This document shows, piece after piece, positions 54,192 to 64,000 of a stretch of DNA of 64,000 bases (within the stretch, counting starts at the first letter, position 1; each line of letters opens with the position of its first letter). A model generated the notes under the pieces. The model worked only from the letters and a program-made list of their open reading frames with translations. It was not told the origin of the DNA and searched no databases. Both the position numbers and the translations under genes were made by a program. The DNA is from Synechococcus sp. MEDNS5 (GTDB taxonomy: Bacteria > Cyanobacteriota > Cyanobacteriia > PCC-6307 > Cyanobiaceae), in contig NZ_CP047952.1 in the NCBI RefSeq assembly GCF_014279875.1, positions 1,612,001 through 1,676,000 on the forward strand, read 5' to 3'.

Positions 54192-54917
54192 TCAGGCACT
54201 GGTGACCAGGTTGAGCACGGCAGAAATCACCGTTGAATAAAAAAGAAAACTTACAATGGAGTGGAACCAGACCACCCTTCGAATCCTCGAATCTTCAAGC
54301 GTTACATCACTCATGGCATAGGTGAGACCTACCGCGAAAGCGACGTAAAGAAAATCGGTAAAGATTGGCTCACTCCCTTCGAAGATCAATCCCTGCGGGG
54401 ACTCACCATTCTCGCCACTTCGGGGGTTGAGCTGAAAATAACTCTTAGCATAGTGAATACCGAAACCATTATGCAATTGCATCCACGTAGCGAACATAGA
54501 CAAGAAATACACAACAATCCTCAGCCATTCTGGCAAGAAACTCTGACCGGAATGAATGTCACTGATGCTCAAGCTTAACAGGGCAATACTCATAAAAGTA
54601 AACAAAATCGTTCTGAGGATAAGCCGCATACGACGAGCCCTTTCATGGCCGAAGAGCGTTCGTGTTTGCGGAAGATTCAATCGTGATGCACAAACATTGA
54701 AACGGACAAGGTCGATCAGCATGGCGCTGAGAAACCCAACAGAAAAGGCTTCATCAAGCACATTCCAACGCGCCCCCATGACCCAGAAGATGATCAGGGC
54801 AACAACAACACCAATCGAGCCAGCGATCTTGGCGCGCTCAAGATCATGAAATGCACTGAACAGCTGATGGGAAAAAGACGAGGCCGTCATGGCCACATAT
54901 TCATGATTCAAATCCAT
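54192..54917 (-). CDS. DUF1345 family membrane protein
   Basis: A 241-residue membrane protein resembling DUF1345, function unknown. Six or so hydrophobic segments are seen, with the conserved core HYAKSYFQLNP, DFLYVAFAVGLTYAMSDV and RRVVWFHSIVSFLFYSTVI. The sequence is visibly richer in A and T than the genes to the left. An alternative ATG at 54890 would drop nine residues. Confidence 0.75.
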   Translation of the reverse strand: MDLNHEYVAMTASSFSHQLFSAFHDLERAKIAGSIGVVVALIIFWVMGARWNVLDEAFSVGFLSAMLIDLVRFNVCASRLNLPQTRTLFGHERARRMRLILRTILFTFMSIALLSLSISDIHSGQSFLPEWLRIVVYFLSMFATWMQLHNGFGIHYAKSYFQLNPRSGENGESPQGLIFEGSEPIFTDFLYVAFAVGLTYAMSDVTLEDSRIRRVVWFHSIVSFLFYSTVISAVLNLVTSA

Positions 54918-54992: not shown

Positions 54993-55493
54993 ATGAGCGC
55001 TGATGCGCATAAAACCACTCACTTTGGAGTGGAGCATCGACTCCATGCCAGAGCCCGCATTCGCTTCAGGTCTGAGCCCAGTCCAGAGACGCTGCGGAGC
55101 GTCATCTGGCTGATTGAGCGTGATGAATCGGGCGTCATGGCTCGCTCAGCACTGGCGGGACGTGGGCTCGTGCTCTGGTGTGTCGACAAGGAACAATCCA
55201 TCGAGATTGGCTTACAACTCCTCCAGAACGTGCTGCAAGCTCCCTGCGCGCACCTAGTCATCCCCCCCGCACGCGGATTGGCCGGCGTGCTTCAGCGATC
55301 CCGTAAGGGTGGCATCAAAGTTCTAATGGCCCTTGCCGTGGCTGGTTGGGCTCTCCCTGTCCTTCCTGGTACACCCTTCTTTTTGATGGCCTGGTGGTTG
55401 GGATGGAGACCAGACCCATCGCCTGCCTCTCAGCGGAAATCGATCTCGATGCAAACGCCTTTAACCCTTGCGGATAAAGGAGCCAATCCATGA
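54993..55493 (+). CDS. HMA2-like small membrane protein, type 1
   Basis: A 166-residue protein with a clear GAGGAGG ribosome site. The N-terminal part (HRLHARARIRFR, then ARSALAGRGLVLWC) looks like the HMA2-type ferredoxin-like domain and lacks the metal-binding CxxC. The C-terminal half has a hydrophobic hairpin (MALAVAGWALPVLPGTPFFLM). It opens the P-type ATPase cluster and shares its layout with the gene at 59316. Its end overlaps the convergent ArsA-like gene by 64 bases. Function unknown. Confidence 0.6.
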   Translation: MSADAHKTTHFGVEHRLHARARIRFRSEPSPETLRSVIWLIERDESGVMARSALAGRGLVLWCVDKEQSIEIGLQLLQNVLQAPCAHLVIPPARGLAGVLQRSRKGGIKVLMALAVAGWALPVLPGTPFFLMAWWLGWRPDPSPASQRKSISMQTPLTLADKGANP

Positions 55494-56509
55494 GATTCTT
55501 TGGGTAAGACGATCTGCAGACGCTGTTCAAATGCAGAGATTTCCAGCTTTTGATCTCGGCAGGTGATGCGCAAATCCGCCTTTTGGACACCGGGAGCAAA
55601 AACACGGCAGGTGAGCGTCAATCGCCCCTGCTGATCCCCACGATCCCAGCGCACGGATGGAGGCGGTGTGGATGCTGAGCTCCACCATTGTTGAATGAAA
55701 TCCCGTTGATTCATTTCGTCGCGCCCAGTGATGAGAACGGGGAGTCCCGAATCTGGTAATGGCGTCACGGTCCAGCCCTGACCCTGCAGAACAATGCGAG
55801 TGAGTGGAAGGGAATTAAGAGGCATCAGGGCACAGCGTCGTCTCAGCAAAGGCCAGCGTGCAGCATCTCCAATCAGCGCCAGCACCAACTCGCTGTGAGC
55901 AGGGTTGTTCAAGTAAGTGGAGAGTTTCTGCAACCGCCTTCTCCACACCTCTGGTGGTCGTAGATCGTCAGCAGCAGGCAATTGCAAGCGCAGCACTCGG
56001 TCAAAGTGCGAAAGCTTCCGCCGGGTTTCAGTCCACCAGGTCAACAGGGGGCCCCAGAGGGAATCGAGCAGCTCAGGGCCCTGGCGAGCCAGTTGAAGCA
56101 TGGCAAGAGCCTGGGTAGCCGGTGGAAGCACCACCGTTACAGCGCCGGCAACGCTGGACTCGATCTCGTGATCCAGCTGTTCAGCAAGCCATAGCAAGGC
56201 CTGGAGATCCCGGAGTCCCGGCAGCAGCCAGGGAGGCCTGGGGTCAACATCCTCGAAACCCAGCATCAGAAGCCAGGGAGTGAGGGGCTGTTTCAGCTCA
56301 CTCCAAAGCATGCGGGAATGCGCATCGACAGCGAAGGGCTTCACGGTGCGAGGAAAGTCGTTTGGAAGAATCAGCGACAGATCCCCTGCAAGGTCAAGAA
56401 CGGGACCATCATCAGGCTGTGCAATCAACAGATCTGAGGCCATTTCCAGTTGATCAGCGCAAAGGAAGACCAGCGATGGCACTGTCAGCCTTTGCAATGT
56501 ATTGACCAC
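55430..56509 (-). CDS. ArsA/Get3d-like protein lacking the P-loop
   Basis: A 359-residue protein. The C-terminal ~85 residues resemble the HSP20/alpha-crystallin-like domain of ArsA and Get3d proteins (FAPGVQKADLRITCRDQKLEI). The N-terminal part shows the fold pattern of an ArsA/Get3 ATPase (FLCADQLEMASDLL, ALIGDAARWPLLRRRCA) but no GKGGVGKT-type P-loop, so ATP binding by the usual mode is unlikely. The start is GTG. It is the only leftward gene in the first part of the cluster. The homology is weak and read by eye; a decayed or specialised Get3d is my best guess. Confidence 0.5.
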   Translation of the reverse strand: MVNTLQRLTVPSLVFLCADQLEMASDLLIAQPDDGPVLDLAGDLSLILPNDFPRTVKPFAVDAHSRMLWSELKQPLTPWLLMLGFEDVDPRPPWLLPGLRDLQALLWLAEQLDHEIESSVAGAVTVVLPPATQALAMLQLARQGPELLDSLWGPLLTWWTETRRKLSHFDRVLRLQLPAADDLRPPEVWRRRLQKLSTYLNNPAHSELVLALIGDAARWPLLRRRCALMPLNSLPLTRIVLQGQGWTVTPLPDSGLPVLITGRDEMNQRDFIQQWWSSASTPPPSVRWDRGDQQGRLTLTCRVFAPGVQKADLRITCRDQKLEISAFEQRLQIVLPKESHGLAPLSARVKGVCIEIDFR

Positions 56510-56590
56510 TACGTTTCAAGCCATCACGTCAATTTTGGCATCGCTGAATCGGAGAAAAGCAAGTAAATTCCCGGGAGATGGGTGAAAGCG

Positions 56591-56926
56591 ATGTTCGAGC
56601 TGGAGACAGTACTTGCCTTCGGCGTTGGTGCCGGATTGGTTGCATTGGCACCAATGGTGAAGCGTTTCGGCAATCCCCAACTCGGCGATTCGATGAACCA
56701 GACAGGGCGTTCCATGGCAAAAAGTGGAATCAAATTGGGGGTCACCGTGGCCAGTGCAGCTGGTGCTGCTGCCAAGGGGGTCGCGCGCGGAGCTGCTGAA
56801 GCAGCCGAGGGGCTTGGAGATTTGGTTGCTGAAGCCAGGCATGAAATGGAGTCCTCTGGAGAAACAGATGAGCCTGCTGTCAAGTCGACCAAATCCAAAA
56901 AAGTCACTGAAGTCACTGTCGAGTGA
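56591..56926 (+). CDS. DUF5132-like small membrane protein, copy 1
   Basis: A 111-residue protein with one N-terminal hydrophobic segment (FELETVLAFGVGAGLVALAPMV), then an Ala/Gly-rich amphipathic helix (GVTVASAAGAAAKGVARG), acidic EAR repeats and a Lys/Thr/Val tail. The layout resembles DUF5132, and also, by architecture only, the mycobacterial PacL scaffolds of metal-efflux ATPases. The ATG at 56591 matches the start of the paralogue at 63267. Its stop overlaps the ATPase start (GTGA), tying the two together. Confidence 0.65.
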   Translation: MFELETVLAFGVGAGLVALAPMVKRFGNPQLGDSMNQTGRSMAKSGIKLGVTVASAAGAAAKGVARGAAEAAEGLGDLVAEARHEMESSGETDEPAVKSTKSKKVTEVTVE

Positions 56927-59319
56927 GGAATTCCACCACCATCTCTGGTTGCCTCACTATGAGGGAGCAGTCGACTACTGGCTTTCAGCTCATTCATCGC
57001 AGTAATCAGCGACTGCGCTTGAGTCTTCCTCACGATCGCAAGGCTCCTGAGGCGCTGCATCAATGGTTGGCTAGTCAACCTGAAATCCTCTCAGCCAGGG
57101 TCAACACCTTGGCTCAATCACTCATCATCACGCTGCCTCCATCCAACTCAGGCTGGAGCGACGATGACGTGATCCGCTGGATGAATTCCCTCCCCAGCGA
57201 TGGGGAACTGGTTCATCAACTCAACGCCTGTCCTCCGATTCAGGACGTTGCGTTGAGTGGTGGCAATGAGGAGGAGCCCTTCGTCCCCTCCCGGATCATT
57301 CTTCCTGTCAGTTCCTTGGCACTGGCACTACTCGCCGGCCCCTTATCGCTGCCACCTCTGGGCGTGGCGATCTTCATTCTCATTGCAGCCCGCCTGAGCT
57401 TCCGTCGGGCCTGGGAGGGCCTGCGGGATGAACGCCGCATCAACGTCGATGCTCTCGACGCTTTGGCTGTGGGTATTCACAGTCTCGAGGGATTTCTTAT
57501 TGGCCCGGCGTTGATGATCAGCATGATTGAGGGCGGTGAAGCGGTTCGCGATGCCACCCAACGGATTGCGCATTCAGCCAGTTCCGATCTCCTGGCAGGT
57601 CTTGAGGCGGATGTCCGCCGTGTTGATGACGCCGGAAACGAAACGATCGTGCCCAGCTCCGAACTCAAATCAGACGACAGAGCCATCTTTTATCCAGGGG
57701 ACAGCATTCCCTGTGATGGAATCGTTGAAAAAGGCGAAGTCAGCTTCGATGTTGTGAAGCTCACCGGTGAATCTGTCCCCCGTCACGCCGAGGCAGGAGA
57801 TGAAGTTTTGGCTGGATTCATCCTGCTTGAAGGGACCATGATCATGCGCATCACGGCTGTTGGCTGCGACACCCGTATCGGCCAAATCACAGCGTTGATC
57901 GACTCAGCTCCTGTTTTCGACACTCGGGTGGGCAATGTCGCAGCCAGGGTTGCTAATCGCTTCGTGTTGCCGACTCTTGCATTGGCAGGGGTCTCACTGC
58001 TTCTGAGTGCAGGCAATCTCGCCCAGGCGGCCTCCCTGCTGATGTTCGACCTGGGCACCGGCCTCAGGGTTTCTGTCCCAACTGCGATCATGGCCGCCCT
58101 GACACGCGCAGGGAGCCAGGGACTCCTGATTCGTAGTGGACGTGCGCTCGAACTTCTCGATGAGATCGACGTTGTTGTCTTCGATAAGACCGGCACACTC
58201 ACCAAAGGCCACCCCTCCGTGGTTCATTTTGATGTGCTCGACCCGTCCTTTGCGCCAGAAACACTGATGCATCTGGCGGCATCCGCCGAACAAGGACTAA
58301 ACCATCCGATTGCAGAAGCCGTCGTTCAATACGCGGCACTCTCAGAACAGCACCCAGCCACTCCTGATGCATGGGATTACAAGGTCGGGCGTGGTGTCTC
58401 CGCTGTGATCGATGGCCATTCCGTGTTGATCGGGAACTCCAGATTGCTTCGCGAAGAAGGCTTAACTGAGCCAGAACTAGCGATTCGCCCTGATCTAGAC
58501 ACAGCAACACCTGTTTTTCTTGCCGTCGACGGTGCCATCGTCGGTGTCTTCCACGCCGCCGATACCCTGCGTCCCGACAGCCACGCCCTGGTGCAAGAAC
58601 TGCACCGCCGCGGAATCCAAGCGCACATGCTCACCGGCGACATTGCACCCGTTGCTCACGCTGTGGCCGCTCGGCTTGGTCTAAGGCCAGATGAAGTGCA
58701 CGCGGAAGCGCTACCCGATCAGAAAGCCGAACTGGTGAAAGCATTCAAAGACCAAGGCAAACGCGTCGTGTTCGTGGGAGATGGCATCAATGACTCAGCG
58801 GCTCTGGCCTACGCCGATGTGTCTGTTTCATTCGCCTCTGGCAGCGACCTGGCCAGGGAAACCGCTGACATCGTGCTCACGAACGATCGTGTTTCCGATC
58901 TGATCGCTGCACAGGATCTGTCTCGGCTCACCTTCAAACTCATCCGCGAGAACATCGGCATCGTTGGCGTTCCCAACCTCACCGCACTGCTCATCGGAAC
59001 CTTCTTCCCCCTGGGACCCATCACAGCCGTGCTGATTAATAACGGGTCCTCCTTGGTAGCTGCTGGCAATGCCATGCGCACGCTCAGATTTCGTCCTTCC
59101 CCCCTACCAGAACCGCAAAGCTGCGACCTGCCGGCACCATTGCGCGCCAGTGATCTTGCCAAACGCTTGGGAACGACCCATCAAAGGATTAGCTCGATGC
59201 GCAGGAGAGGGGGACTTCACTCTTGGAGCCGCCTCCAAGATCCTGACGGACACAGCTGGCGCTACTGCGAAACAACTCAGATCTACCACCCGCTGGAAAT
59301 CGCTGAGGCGGTGGCTTGA
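56923..59319 (+). CDS. P-type ATPase, P1B-like, lacking the CPC motif
   Basis: A 798-residue transport ATPase with every catalytic element: actuator TGES (T281-E283), phosphorylation DKTGTLT (Asp421), HP (His461-Pro462), TGD (571-573) and GDGINDSAA (619-627). The N-terminal HMA2-like domain (about residues 25-95) has no CxxC. The membrane segment before the P-domain reads FDLGTGLRVSVPTA (375-387) where heavy-metal pumps have CPCALGLATPTA, so the CPC ligands are gone and the ion is unclear. A C-terminal extension (about 735-798) looks like a helix-turn-helix domain. Start GTG overlapping the DUF5132 stop; an ATG at 56959 is alternative. Confidence 0.88.
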   Translation: MRNSTTISGCLTMREQSTTGFQLIHRSNQRLRLSLPHDRKAPEALHQWLASQPEILSARVNTLAQSLIITLPPSNSGWSDDDVIRWMNSLPSDGELVHQLNACPPIQDVALSGGNEEEPFVPSRIILPVSSLALALLAGPLSLPPLGVAIFILIAARLSFRRAWEGLRDERRINVDALDALAVGIHSLEGFLIGPALMISMIEGGEAVRDATQRIAHSASSDLLAGLEADVRRVDDAGNETIVPSSELKSDDRAIFYPGDSIPCDGIVEKGEVSFDVVKLTGESVPRHAEAGDEVLAGFILLEGTMIMRITAVGCDTRIGQITALIDSAPVFDTRVGNVAARVANRFVLPTLALAGVSLLLSAGNLAQAASLLMFDLGTGLRVSVPTAIMAALTRAGSQGLLIRSGRALELLDEIDVVVFDKTGTLTKGHPSVVHFDVLDPSFAPETLMHLAASAEQGLNHPIAEAVVQYAALSEQHPATPDAWDYKVGRGVSAVIDGHSVLIGNSRLLREEGLTEPELAIRPDLDTATPVFLAVDGAIVGVFHAADTLRPDSHALVQELHRRGIQAHMLTGDIAPVAHAVAARLGLRPDEVHAEALPDQKAELVKAFKDQGKRVVFVGDGINDSAALAYADVSVSFASGSDLARETADIVLTNDRVSDLIAAQDLSRLTFKLIRENIGIVGVPNLTALLIGTFFPLGPITAVLINNGSSLVAAGNAMRTLRFRPSPLPEPQSCDLPAPLRASDLAKRLGTTHQRISSMRRRGGLHSWSRLQDPDGHSWRYCETTQIYHPLEIAEAVA

Positions 59320-59819
59320 GCAGCAGCGACTGCCTGATCTTGCGCCACCGCAACTCCCTGCGTTGCCGATACACGATTTGTTCGTCGACCTCAATTTGCT
59401 GGCGTCAACTCGAACGAGAACTCTCCAATCGCCTCGCCAACCACAGCATTCAGTTCCGTTGCAACAAACTAGCCGGTTCGATTTCGTTTCACACCACAGC
59501 AGCTCTGGGTGAACTGAATTGGCACGTCGCAACCCAGGCCCTGGTGGCGTCCCTCAATGCTTTGGGGGCCACGCCTCCCCCTGCCAAGGTGTTGGCGATT
59601 TCCGTAAAAACGATCCGGTCCCCATTGCCACCCCTTGGCAATGCCATCACGTTGGCACTCAGTGTGAGTCTCGCCCTGATGGCCTTTCTGCTTCTGCTGA
59701 TTGGTCTGCCAGCGCTCCTGCTGCCGTTGTCCCCGGGTTCTGTTCTGATTCTCCTGGCGACTTGGTGTCTTGAACTTTCACTGCTGATACGACGTCCCTT
59801 CGTTCAATACGCCCCCTGA
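59316..59819 (+). CDS. HMA2-like small membrane protein, type 2
   Basis: A 167-residue protein starting at a TTG that overlaps the ATPase stop. The N-terminal domain has the HMA2-like features seen in its neighbours (HRNSLRCRYT, then CNKLAGSISF), and the C-terminal half has two membrane segments around LPLSPGSVL. Same layout as the gene at 54993. The translation start is uncertain. Lies between the active ATPase and the inactive homologue, five bases before the latter. Confidence 0.6.
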   Translation: MSSSDCLILRHRNSLRCRYTICSSTSICWRQLERELSNRLANHSIQFRCNKLAGSISFHTTAALGELNWHVATQALVASLNALGATPPPAKVLAISVKTIRSPLPPLGNAITLALSVSLALMAFLLLLIGLPALLLPLSPGSVLILLATWCLELSLLIRRPFVQYAP

Positions 59820-59824
59820 TTGCC

Positions 59825-61990
59825 GTGACAACCATGGTTTCGATCACCTCGGATGTCCAACTCTGGACAGTGGTCAGTGACCTTCCCGGCAGGGTGAGGG
59901 TTCGCTGGAACCCTGCACTCTTCAACGTTGAGACACTACGTCACACCCGATTGGTGCTGGGTGGTTGTCCCTGGCTGCTGGGATTCCGCATCAACCCCCT
60001 GGCCGGAAGTCTCTGCATTCATGTGCGCTCCGACCACCGCTCGAAGCTGGAGGAGCTGCTTGCCCTGGCATTCGATCCAGGTGGCACTCAACTCGAGCCG
60101 GATTGCGAGGCTTTGGTGCGGTCGAGACGCGCAAGCCGCGTGTTGTTGCACGGTGGAGTCTGCACGGGGATCCTGTTGTTTGATCTCTTAATTCCTCTGC
60201 CGCTCACCCTGCTGGTTGGCCTGTCGTCGGTGATGATTTGGCCAAGGATCCTTACAGGCTTGCGATCTCTCTTCAAGGGGGAGACCGATTACGACTTGAT
60301 GGAGCTTGGACTCTCCGGGCTCATGCTCTTCCAAGGACTTCCCGAGGAAGTTCTCTTGGATCTCAGCATTCATGATGGAACGGGCCTAATGCAGCAATCC
60401 ATGCTGCCCGCCGAAGAGACCGGAAGCCCCAAGCGCTTGTTGCAGCGACTCGAAGAGCGAATTCATCTCACATCGCCGGATCCCGATCAAAAGACCATCT
60501 GCCTTTCAGATGCGAAACGCGGGCAAAAGTATCTGATTCATGCCGAACAAATGTGTCCCTTGCGTTCACGCGTGGAATGCGGGGATCTACTTGTGATTGA
60601 TAAACGCATCAACGGTGACTGGCAACCACGCTGGTTGAAGCAAGGCGATGGCGTCAAAGCTGGGGCGCTGGTGATTAAAGGCAAGGGAGTCCTGAGCCTG
60701 CAGACGGAACTCGACAACGACCCTACCTATGCCTTATTGCATAAACAGCAAACACACAGCGGCCTCGAAGACAACGTTTTAGCGGACGATCTCGCATCAA
60801 TCGGTCGCTGGATGAATCCTTTTCTGCTGCTGAGCAGCGGTGCCTTGATTGCCACTGGTGCCGGCCACGCGGCGCTCGCCCCCCTGCAATTCACGCCCTT
60901 GCATAACTGGGAACAGAGCGTAAGTGGTGCCAGGCTGACAGCGGTAGCTGATCTGAAGCTACACAACGTCAATATTCACAACCCCAACACGCTGAGCAGT
61001 TTCGGCAGGGTCAAGCACCTTGTGGTGACCTTCAGCGGCCTAAACCATCACCGTGGGATCAATTTAGAAGAGCACAGGATCGAGGATGGCTTAGCAGAAG
61101 GAAGCCTGGTGAGACTTCTGTCGGGAATCCAGTCCTGGTTGGTTGAAGAAGGAGGGCCCTCGATCTGGGCTGATCAGCTACGCAAGATCGACAATCCCAC
61201 AGCGATCGACTCGGTAACGATCGAGTCAGCAAGCCGTCGCTTCAATGTAGTGACAGCAACTGGTGAAAGATACTTAGTGGAGCCTGGGGTGACGGAATCG
61301 CCTTCCACCTCAGATGTTCCGGAGATCCTGCAGCCCCTGACCATTTTCCGTGATGGCAACGCAATCGGCAGGATCACCATGACAGTTTGTCCTGACGATC
61401 ACTGGATTCAAGCCTCTTCTTGGCTCAAGAGACAGGGAATCAAGCTTCATGTGGTCTCCACCCTTCCGCCGAAACAGCTGAGAACCAGCGTTCACAGCCT
61501 GGGCATTCCTGATGGTCAAATCCATGGAGGTTGCGACGGAGCCAAGCGGGTCGCACTGGTCAGACGCCTTCAAGGACAATCCCAAACTGGGGTGGCCTAT
61601 CTGGGCTACCTGATCCAGGACCTCGCAGCCCTTGAATTGGCCGATGTCTCAATTGGCATGCGCGTCGAAGACGACAGCCTCTTCATCTCCGAACTCTGCG
61701 ATCTGACGATTCCCACGAACGCAGGATGGATTCCCAGACTGATCGAGCTGAGCCGCAGATTGCAGTCCACAGAGAACGGCAACTTTGGACTGATCACTAC
61801 AACCCAGCTCATTTCGACCCTGGCAACCGTTGTGGGTTGGATCCCGCCGCTTCAGACCATCCTTCTCGCCGACCTACCGATGTTGATTGCTGAATTGCAC
61901 AACATCTTGAGCGTTGAACGAGTGGGCTACCCGGCTGGGGATGCTGGAACTCAGCTGGCGGCCTTCACAAGTCGCCATGACGATCGCTGA
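59825..61990 (+). CDS. Inactive P-type ATPase homologue (pseudo-ATPase)
   Basis: A 721-residue P-type ATPase fold without the catalytic residues. The N-terminal HMA2-like domain (SDLPGRVRVRW, NPLAGSLCIHV) and two membrane pairs are kept. At the phosphorylation site the sequence is VVTFSGLNHH (Thr402 where DKTGT has Asp); the TGE loop is replaced by a segment around GDWQPRWLKQGDG; and GDGINDSAAL has become GYLIQDLAAL (594-603), still followed by ADVSIGM. The frame is intact, so a non-catalytic role is more likely than decay. Start GTG, or ATG at 59834. Three overlap or spacing signals place it in the same transcript as the active pump. Confidence 0.8.
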   Translation: MTTMVSITSDVQLWTVVSDLPGRVRVRWNPALFNVETLRHTRLVLGGCPWLLGFRINPLAGSLCIHVRSDHRSKLEELLALAFDPGGTQLEPDCEALVRSRRASRVLLHGGVCTGILLFDLLIPLPLTLLVGLSSVMIWPRILTGLRSLFKGETDYDLMELGLSGLMLFQGLPEEVLLDLSIHDGTGLMQQSMLPAEETGSPKRLLQRLEERIHLTSPDPDQKTICLSDAKRGQKYLIHAEQMCPLRSRVECGDLLVIDKRINGDWQPRWLKQGDGVKAGALVIKGKGVLSLQTELDNDPTYALLHKQQTHSGLEDNVLADDLASIGRWMNPFLLLSSGALIATGAGHAALAPLQFTPLHNWEQSVSGARLTAVADLKLHNVNIHNPNTLSSFGRVKHLVVTFSGLNHHRGINLEEHRIEDGLAEGSLVRLLSGIQSWLVEEGGPSIWADQLRKIDNPTAIDSVTIESASRRFNVVTATGERYLVEPGVTESPSTSDVPEILQPLTIFRDGNAIGRITMTVCPDDHWIQASSWLKRQGIKLHVVSTLPPKQLRTSVHSLGIPDGQIHGGCDGAKRVALVRRLQGQSQTGVAYLGYLIQDLAALELADVSIGMRVEDDSLFISELCDLTIPTNAGWIPRLIELSRRLQSTENGNFGLITTTQLISTLATVVGWIPPLQTILLADLPMLIAELHNILSVERVGYPAGDAGTQLAAFTSRHDDR

Positions 61991-62463
61991 CCCGGCCGCT
62001 GGATCCGCAGGCAGCGAAGCCCTCGTCTCTCGAAGCCTTTGCCGTCGCAGAGATCCTGCAAAGGAGGTAAGCGCCTGAGCTGAAGAAGATCCGCCAGCTC
62101 ACGGCTGTCCACTTCGATGCCAGTTCGCACAAGCTGTTCAAGGATCTCGAGACGTTCTCTGAACAGCCTTAGATCTGCGAACTGCTCAGCTTTCATCCAA
62201 TTGGATTCGCCACTGACGACAGGCAAAGACGACGCATCACTCTCGCCATGGGCCTGAACCAGCTCAAGCTCGGTCGCTACAAGCTCCCCACCTTCGCCGG
62301 TGGCCGCAGCTCTCAAACGTGAAACGTCACTCGCCCGCAGGAATGTTCGCAGCCCTCGACGCTCAGGAGTGATGCCAATGCGCTGAGCCAAGACAAGGAT
62401 CTCAGCTCGCGAGAGTCCCAGCTCGGATTCGAGCCTCGAGAGGGTCAGCATCTCATCAGCCAT
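61951..62463 (-). CDS. HTH-like putative regulator (170 aa)
   Basis: A 170-residue protein whose first 45 residues (SRLESELGLSRAEILVLAQ, then FLRASDVSRL) look like a MerR/excisionase-type winged helix. The C-terminal third (SRELADLLQLRRLPPL, then RPGQRSSWRLV) resembles the C-terminal extension of the P-type ATPase at 56923. Start ATG at 62463. Divergent from the carbonic anhydrase gene; its end overlaps the pseudo-ATPase by 40 bases. A role controlling the cluster is inferred from position. Confidence 0.6.
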   Translation of the reverse strand: MADEMLTLSRLESELGLSRAEILVLAQRIGITPERRGLRTFLRASDVSRLRAAATGEGGELVATELELVQAHGESDASSLPVVSGESNWMKAEQFADLRLFRERLEILEQLVRTGIEVDSRELADLLQLRRLPPLQDLCDGKGFERRGLRCLRIQRPGQRSSWRLVKAAS

Positions 62464-62556
62464 GGGCAAGCAACGGACCACCGGGACATGTTGGTCGCGA
62501 ACAGTTCAGAACGGGGTGGTCATGACGACACCGTGTCCAGAACATCGAGGCAATTC

Positions 62557-63183
62557 ATGGCAACCTTCGACCAAAACCCCTCCACGAAAACGGACATGAC
62601 GATGACGCCCGAACAGAGTTTTCAAGCCTTGAAGGCGGGGCATGAGCGATTTATGGCGGGAAAATCGCGGCACCCCCATTCCTCAGCTCACAGGCTCAAG
62701 CAGCTGGTGGATGGTCAACGTCCGATGGCCGCCATCTTGAGTTGTTCCGACTCGCGCGTTCCGGTTGAGTTGCTCTTCGATGCGGGGTTTGGAGATCTTT
62801 ACGTGGTCCGCACCGCAGGGAACACAAGTTACAGCGACACCATTGGCTCTCTCGACTACGGCGTGCTGTCGTTAGGCATTCATCTCATTGTGGTGATGGG
62901 GCATGAACGCTGCGGAGCCGTCACAGCAGCCTGCACTTCAGAGGAAACGCTCACGCCAGCGCTCAGCGATCTGGTTGGCACCATCCGCTCCAATCTCAAA
63001 CGCGTTGGTATGAGCAATGATGTGGGCGCAGCCTGCCGAGCCAACAGCATGGAATCGGCTCGCAGCTTGGTTCATGGCAGTGCGTTGATGCAGGAGCGGG
63101 TGAAGCAAGGAACTCTTCGTATCGAAGCGGCTTGTTACACCCTCGAAGAGGGGGCCATCGAGTGGCTCGGTGCTGTCTCCTGA
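62557..63183 (+). CDS. Beta-class carbonic anhydrase
   Basis: Interconverts carbon dioxide and bicarbonate. The 208-residue protein has zinc ligands Cys63, His116 and Cys119 with the catalytic Asp65-Arg67 pair (CSDSRV and GHERCGAV). No signal peptide is visible from the ATG at 62557, which has GAGG six bases upstream; an earlier in-frame ATG at 62488 would add 23 residues. Not part of a carboxysome gene set. It sits inside the P-type ATPase cluster. Confidence 0.92.
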   Translation: MATFDQNPSTKTDMTMTPEQSFQALKAGHERFMAGKSRHPHSSAHRLKQLVDGQRPMAAILSCSDSRVPVELLFDAGFGDLYVVRTAGNTSYSDTIGSLDYGVLSLGIHLIVVMGHERCGAVTAACTSEETLTPALSDLVGTIRSNLKRVGMSNDVGAACRANSMESARSLVHGSALMQERVKQGTLRIEAACYTLEEGAIEWLGAVS

Positions 63184-63266: not shown

Positions 63267-63584
63267 ATGTTCGAACTCGAATTTCTCCTGGCCATGGGCG
63301 TCGGCGCTGCTCTTGTTGCTGTGGCACCTACCGTGAAAGCCATCAGTGGAAAGGAAACCGACTGGAGCCGCTCGGTTAGCAACAGCGGACGCACCATTAC
63401 CAAGCAGGGCCTCAAGCTTGGAATTCGTCTGGCGGACACAACGGGGGCTCTCTTGAAAGGTGTAGGACACGGCTTTTCAGAGGTCAGCGAAACCTTCACA
63501 GACCTTCTCGCTGAAGCTCGTGCGGACCTTGAAACCAACAAGTCAGCCCAACCTGCTGCGACCGTGACATCCAAACGCGGTTGA
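63267..63584 (+). CDS. DUF5132-like small membrane protein, copy 2
   Basis: A 105-residue paralogue of the protein at 56591: same start (MFELE), an N-terminal hydrophobic segment (FLLAMGVGAALVAVAPTVKA), an amphipathic helix and acidic EAR repeats (LTDLLAEARADLE-like). Followed four bases later by the convergent end of a second inactive ATPase homologue. Confidence 0.65.
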   Translation: MFELEFLLAMGVGAALVAVAPTVKAISGKETDWSRSVSNSGRTITKQGLKLGIRLADTTGALLKGVGHGFSEVSETFTDLLAEARADLETNKSAQPAATVTSKRG

Positions 63585-63588
63585 ACTC

Positions 63589-63999
63589 CTAAGCCCTCTT
63601 TCCACGCATGAGGCTTGCAACAGAGCGGGAATTGAAAATATCAGCGGTGAGGATCGGTAGATCCACAAGAATCACTGCAACCAAAGGGTTGAGTGGGATC
63701 ACAAGGTTCACCAACACCACCAACAAGTGAGGCATGAGCACCCAAATCACTTGCTCTTTCTGCCGTCGCTGGAACCGTTGGCAAAGATTGACCAGCACAG
63801 GGAGCTGATCAATACATCGAGGTGCTATCAGAACATCGGCAAGCTCCTGGGAGAACGCCTGATCCAGGTCAGAGATCCGCATCCCCACATCAGCAGCTGC
63901 GATTAAGGAAACATCCGTATCCTCACCCGCGAGCAGCATCACCGGTCCCTGGGAGCGACACTGCCCAAGCCAGGCCAACTGCTTGGAAACATCGGGCTC
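63589..63999 (-). CDS. Second inactive P-type ATPase homologue (5' end outside window)
   Basis: The last 136 residues of a leftward gene that continues past the right edge. It aligns with the C-terminal end of P-type ATPases: VMLLAGEDTDVSLIAAADVGMR corresponds to the GDGINDSAALAYADV hinge but with GEDTDV, so the key Asp and Asn are not conserved. Two membrane segments (VIWVLMPHLLVVLVNLVIPL and a later one) and a VDLPILTADI end match the 59825 homologue (ADLPMLIAEL). Upstream catalytic motifs are not visible. Confidence 0.65.
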   Translation of the reverse strand, partial: EPDVSKQLAWLGQCRSQGPVMLLAGEDTDVSLIAAADVGMRISDLDQAFSQELADVLIAPRCIDQLPVLVNLCQRFQRRQKEQVIWVLMPHLLVVLVNLVIPLNPLVAVILVDLPILTADIFNSRSVASLMRGKRA

Positions 64000-64000
64000 A

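Follow-up and report, generated by a model that had tools for sequence, protein, structure and literature searches.

We describe a P1B-type ATPase homologue, here called D1, that belongs to this family by fold and lies outside its catalytic members by every catalytic feature tested. D1 is encoded downstream of an active P1B-type ATPase (A) in the window, the 64,000-nucleotide stretch of Synechococcus sp. MEDNS5 DNA that was analyzed. For this protein it is established that it is homologous to the pumps at the level of the fold, that every catalytic motif is lost, that selection on it is purifying, and that its gene keeps its place in the gene order and co-occurs with the active pump; the explanation that we consider probable, short of settled, is that D1 is a P-type ATPase pseudoenzyme kept as a noncatalytic subunit or regulator of cation transport, most likely assembled with the upstream ATPase. 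Pseudoenzymes are familiar among kinases and phosphatases, and P1B pumps are usually pictured as solo actors. In the literature searched, which left subscription papers largely uncovered, no description was found of a bacterial P-type ATPase without catalysis that is conserved beside an active one, and as far as this search reaches such proteins are undescribed.

D1 is part of a gene cassette made up of A, D1, a second paralogue without catalytic residues (D2), and about eight more genes, which occupy the following window positions:

54192-54917, minus strand: DUF1345 membrane protein
54993-55493, plus strand: H1, 166 aa, distantly similar to a Tolypothrix HMA_2 protein (profile E=4e-9)
55430-56509, minus strand: conserved protein with an HSP20-like end (Pfam PF17886, slightly under the cut-off), found in every complete cassette
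56582-56926, plus strand: S1, small protein of 114 aa that resembles S2
56923-59319, plus strand: A, active P1B-type ATPase, 798 aa, with DKTGTLT, TGES, GDGIND, and HP intact
59316-59819, plus strand: H2, 167 aa, with distant similarity to HMA_2 proteins
59825-61990, plus strand: D1, full-length P1B-type ATPase homologue without catalytic residues, 721 aa (from the frame, profile alignment, and AlphaFold)
61951-62481, minus strand: conserved 176-aa protein, helix-turn-helix-like by eye, no Pfam match
62488-63183, plus strand: beta-carbonic anhydrase (PF00484, E=2e-32)
63267-63584, plus strand: S2, small protein whose family profile matches a Tolypothrix DUF5132 protein (1e-5)
63589-64000, minus strand: D2, C-terminal part of the second homologue, which runs past the window end

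The D1 frame begins with a GTG start codon and continues for 721 codons with no internal stop. When a profile of 21 D1 homologues is aligned with one of 18 active relatives, the match covers 661 columns (E=2.6e-31), starting in the N-terminal domain and ending at the final membrane helices; residues 505-688 match the NCBIfam model TIGR01525 for heavy-metal P-type ATPases (4e-8), and a Pfam scan of the D1 protein alone gave no match. The complete P1B layout is visible in an AlphaFold model built on the 21-row alignment (pLDDT 76.5, pTM 0.71). All 50 best Foldseek matches to this model are P-type ATPases, the best PDB match being the zinc pump ZntA (4umv; E=4.3e-26, probability 1.00) with TM-scores of 0.58 (query) and 0.67 (target), moderate values that call for caution on domain positions. 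The P-type fold, with A, P, and N domains and a membrane core, is present in D1 according to profile alignment, AlphaFold, and Foldseek. At its N-terminus, the putative HMA_2-like domain is supported by the sequences of homologues and not by the window protein alone: 13 of the 21 homologues match PF19991 (HMA_2) at E<0.1 (best 8e-5), and D1 of the window does not.

Sites of D1 that distinguish it from the active pump, or that are conserved in its own family, are all on the plus strand:

59891-59905: R-x-R motif in the HMA_2-like N-terminus, residues 23-27, with R23 and R25 invariant in 21 homologues
60611-60619: NGD, residues 263-265, replacing TGE of the actuator domain (by alignment)
60884-60919: M4 motif QF-x-P-x-x-(D/N)-W, residues 354-365, common to D2, where the active pump reads MFDLGTGLRVSVPT (by alignment)
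61028-61030: Thr402, where the active pump has its phosphorylated Asp; of 21 homologues, 18 have Ser and 3 have Thr
61547-61549: Arg575, where the active pump has the P-domain Lys; Arg in all 21 homologues
61604-61621: GYLIQD, residues 594-599, in the place of GDGxND, last Asp invariant
61871-61894: DLPMLIAE, residues 683-690, in the last membrane helix, with acidic residues not found in the active pump (NNGSSLVA; by alignment)

DKTGTLT, TGES, GDG[IL]ND, and HP are invariant in the active pump family (18 of 18 sequences). Thr402 of D1 aligns with D421 of DKTGT in the active pump, and this phosphorylation site is not kept in D1, with Ser or Thr in its place in all 21 homologues. NGDW (residues 263-266) aligns with TGES, a reading found in none of the 21 aligned D1 homologues, and the TGD hinge is lost as well. 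Arg575 aligns with Lys601 of the pump, and GYLIQD with its GDGIND, the final Asp being the sole residue of these that is kept as Asp; across the homologues the last Asp of GDxxxD is present in 21 of 21 and the first in 7 of 21, and the third-position Gly of GDGxND is retained in none of the 21 sequences aligned. For the HP nucleotide-binding motif of the N domain, which is H461-P462 in the active pump, D1 has nothing equivalent. Recurring as they do across 21 homologues, these losses are thorough, old, and not peculiar to this genome. A hidden catalytic site elsewhere in D1 was considered and rejected, as no DKTG-like site was found in the protein, whose sole D-x-T-G, at residues 184-187, falls within a helix of the membrane region.

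An earlier note on this DNA had described D1 as a full-length P-type ATPase homologue, which the 721 open codons, the 661-column profile match, and the AlphaFold and Foldseek match to ZntA bear out. It had placed the replacement of the phosphorylated Asp at Thr402, which is the exact residue, and had correctly read GDGxND as GYLIQD at what are residues 594-599. Its report that the TGE loop is absent was right as to the motif, but the loop has been replaced by NGD(W) and not deleted, and its statement that an HMA2-like segment is kept has support from 13 of the 21 homologues, the window protein itself giving no match. The alternative Asp-Lys-Thr-Gly-like site that it named as a possible refutation was looked for by alignment, and D1 has none.

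Nei-Gojobori counting on the tested pairs gave dN/dS values of 0.12-0.26 for D1, 0.05-0.24 for D2, and 0.06-0.14 for the active pump, D1 evolving faster than the pump. All 21 homologues, which come from picocyanobacteria, have open frames, as do the roughly 30 divergent full-length copies (some genomes hold two or three), and frames remain open across amino acid identities of 21-51% to the window protein. The faster evolution of D1 is what could be cited for a decaying pseudogene still open by chance; the low dN/dS, the open divergent copies, and the further duplication in some genomes rule out decay or sequencing error, and this explanation can for practical purposes be dismissed. The argument of the earlier note that intact length points to a noncatalytic role is supported, the dN/dS near one that would have spoken against it having been looked for without being found.

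D1 is tied to the active pump in its distribution. Among 400 genomes of the window's family, the active-pump membrane motif DLGTGLRVSVPT occurs in 30 and D1 in 27, all of them among those 30, and neither is present in the other 370 (Fisher p=6e-39, relatedness ignored). This value is overstated because the genomes are related, and the lack of phylogenetic independence among them counts against the subunit interpretation so far as it rests on these counts. Of the three motif genomes without D1, two (G080 and G105) encode a D2-type protein close to the pump, and the third is a 73% complete assembly. The idea that D1 is common to cyanobacteria generally was rejected: among 386 genomes of the phylum, full-length matches occur only in the window's own family, the remaining matches being C-terminal and to ordinary ATPases. 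A P-type ATPase (CK_00045881) that Synechococcus clade VIII and subcluster 5.2 are reported to have in common, at one or two copies (PMC7522525), may be one of the proteins described here.

Further evidence for a subunit comes from the frames of A, H2, and D1, which overlap or almost touch (H2 shares 4 bases with A, beginning within its stop, and only 5 bases separate H2 from D1), and from a gene order kept across genus groups. The content of the cassette, that is, the genes listed above apart from D2, recurs across several genus groups; order and strand from H1 to D1 are nearly constant, and the carbonic anhydrase, DUF1345, and S2 genes change place. The beta-carbonic anhydrase gene (62488-63183) stays with the cassette in most genomes, its position varying. 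Profiles of both H1 and H2 match the Tolypothrix HMA_2 protein. The last approximately 50 codons of the active ATPase gene (56923-59319) encode a conserved extension, LSxRLGxxHQxIxxRRRRGDFxxWxRSxDPxGxxWxY, which by eye resembles a helix-turn-helix DNA-binding segment and is unusual in a pump.

The second paralogue has followed a similar course. The whole D2 gene (L005:3589-5811) encodes 740 aa; its site of the phosphorylated Asp is Ser or Thr in 9 of 9 sequences, and TGE and most of GDGxND are also lost. The D2 model is weaker (pLDDT 68) and matches the same zinc pump, ZntA, as D1. D2 scores above the Pfam E1-E2_ATPase cut-off despite its missing catalytic residues. A tree of 59 proteins places D1 and D2 together in a single clade (SH-aLRT 100), which groups with the active-pump clade (support 88). 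A single catalytic loss before D1 and D2 split is likely but not certain, since this is a quick tree only and the long branch joining D1 and D2 may mislead.

Copies of both paralogues also occur in other settings. In three genomes of group g10, extra D1-type genes lie at most 24 bp behind an antiporter gene of the Na/Ca-exchanger family (Na_Ca_ex) on the same strand (E 7e-26 to 9e-28 for the Na_Ca_ex matches), and D2 copies in this group have no antiporter neighbor. The Na_Ca_ex and D1-type genes are found in this order at L048:7028-10571, L052:6477-12233 (with two D1-type genes), and L063:6964-10407. At L044:330-4261, a D2 gene (group g47) and a gene for a GDT1 divalent cation/proton antiporter (1e-40) are divergently oriented, with a cation-efflux gene adjoining. 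The extra D1 copies beside antiporters and the lone D2 copies indicate that the ATPase is not required as a neighbor, and the copies beside antiporter genes that the partnership is wider than the ATPase alone; the simplest theme common to these settings is divalent-cation transport, not one pump. The earlier proposal that D1 is a partner of the upstream ATPase therefore agrees with the gene order, the almost joined frames, and the co-occurrence in 27 of 27 genomes, while remaining an inference, and is too narrow in view of the antiporter-linked copies, the second paralogue, and the wider cassette, none of which that note had recorded.

With its complete body evolutionarily kept and its ATP-using parts gone, D1 most likely aids or controls ion transport and is not a solo pump. 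As we envisage it, D1 keeps the P1B body complete, from the HMA_2-like N-terminus through the membrane helices to the actuator, P, and N domains, but has none of the residues with which a pump uses ATP and is autophosphorylated and dephosphorylated. Its most likely role in the main cassette is to assemble with the upstream active ATPase, and with the H1/H2 and S1/S2 proteins; the pump would thereby gain a further, remodelled membrane module and an HMA_2 domain, which would gate, load, or position it. The physical complex, the regulatory action, and the ion are inferred, in the absence of interaction, expression, or transport data.

The main rival, which we regard as unlikely, is that D1 and D2 carry ions themselves without ATP. 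The P-type membrane core would then have become a sensor or a pathway of passive or secondary transport, in which acidic and polar groups newly acquired in M4 and M6 bind the cations. It rests on two motifs, QF-x-P-x-x-D-W in M4 and D-x-P-(x)4-E in M6, which are common to D1 and D2 and missing from the active pump; the conserved acidic residues that are new to the last membrane helix would also fit transport by D1 itself, as would the positions of D1 copies beside the Na_Ca_ex antiporter and of one D2 copy beside the GDT1 antiporter. The M6 Asp of D1 is however found in 15 and the M4 Asp in 14 of 21 homologues, and so neither is invariant, the cytosolic domains hold conserved residues too, and we know of no transporter that reuses a P-type core without ATP. 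That D1 is still an ATPase or phosphatase with another nucleophile is very hard to credit. The nucleophile of P-type ATPases and of most HAD phosphatases is Asp; a conserved Ser or Thr does occupy this site in D1, and the last Asp of GDxxxD and the Arg in the place of Lys are invariant, but TGE, the TGD hinge, the HP motif, and in most members the first Asp of GDGxND have all been lost together.

A structural role for D1 in a ferrosome-like iron organelle, or in a membrane patch around a FezB-like ATPase, seems to us improbable. Ferrosome-type systems comprise FezA, FezB, and FezC (PMC12574912, PMC10979944). Such a system is marked by a FezB-type ATPase with FezA as partner and by iron granules within a membrane. 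The active ATPase appears, by its motif and small partners, to fall in the same broad clan as FezB, without a direct comparison with FezB. Relatives of the pump among HMA_2-type ATPases lie beside iron genes, namely FeoB in Tolypothrix, FeoA and FeoB in Pseudothauera, and genes for a FUR-family regulator and a DUF6110 protein in Coprococcus, which points to iron and ferrosome-type systems, as does the Fur repression reported in difficile (PMC12574912). Against this, the window cassette contains no iron genes, its neighbors being carbonic anhydrase and, elsewhere, the Na_Ca_ex and GDT1 antiporters, and the membrane motif of the active pump is unlike the DFSCALKLS type. As the neighbors seen here suggest Ca or Mn, evidence on the substrate is divided between Fe and Ca/Mn, and the question remains open. 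A doubtful, more speculative extension of the noncatalytic-subunit explanation is that picocyanobacteria have turned a P-type body into a noncatalytic adaptor family shared by divalent-cation transporters of several kinds, namely a P1B pump, an Na_Ca_ex antiporter, and perhaps a GDT1 exchanger, the main cassette linking cation transport to carbonic anhydrase, a link that might serve the handling of inorganic carbon or of mineral inside the cell. Carbonic anhydrase and antiporters are only suggestive of intracellular carbonate formation as a function.

Among known systems, P1B-type ATPases of the ZntA/CopA build (TIGR01525) share with D1 their domain order, fold, and the 661-column profile. Unlike them, D1 lacks the phosphorylated Asp, the Lys and Thr of DKTGT, TGE, the TGD hinge, HP, and the CPC-type membrane motif, and most members lack the first Asp of GDGxND. 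P4-ATPase/CDC50 and KdpFABC are P-type pumps with noncatalytic subunits and share with D1 the idea of an obligate noncatalytic partner, although their partners are not P-type ATPase folds. The nearest conceptual precedent that we found is TMEM94/ERMA of animals, which has a P-type-like structure without TGES and for which no phosphorylation cycle has been observed (PMC12134183); its classification is disputed, another report calling the protein the ER Mg2+ ATPase (PMC13322241). In contrast to D1 it is eukaryotic, has ten membrane helices, and represents an independent case. If D1 is a subunit, then P1B pumps can have P-type-shaped regulators, and if it carries ions itself, a P-type membrane core can work without ATP; D1 would also give the dispute over human TMEM94 a simple bacterial model.

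Resemblance in architecture is also seen in the HMA_2-type P1B ATPases that occur with DUF5132 or DUF6110 small proteins (the FezB-like clan; Tolypothrix L069, Hahella L097, and Coprococcus L076), which have an Arg-rich HMA_2-like N-terminus, no CPC motif, and small helical partner genes. Unlike D1, these ATPases keep the DKTGT site, and no counterpart without catalytic residues was seen beside them in Tolypothrix, Hahella, or Coprococcus. The Tolypothrix locus (L069:2754-12050) holds two HMA_2-type P1B ATPases with HMA_2 proteins, DUF5132, and an adjoining FeoB_N protein. A small HMA_2 protein of Hahella (L097:12073-12480, minus strand) has a weak match to DUF4405 (E=0.005), the family that the ferrosome protein FezC has been described as resembling.
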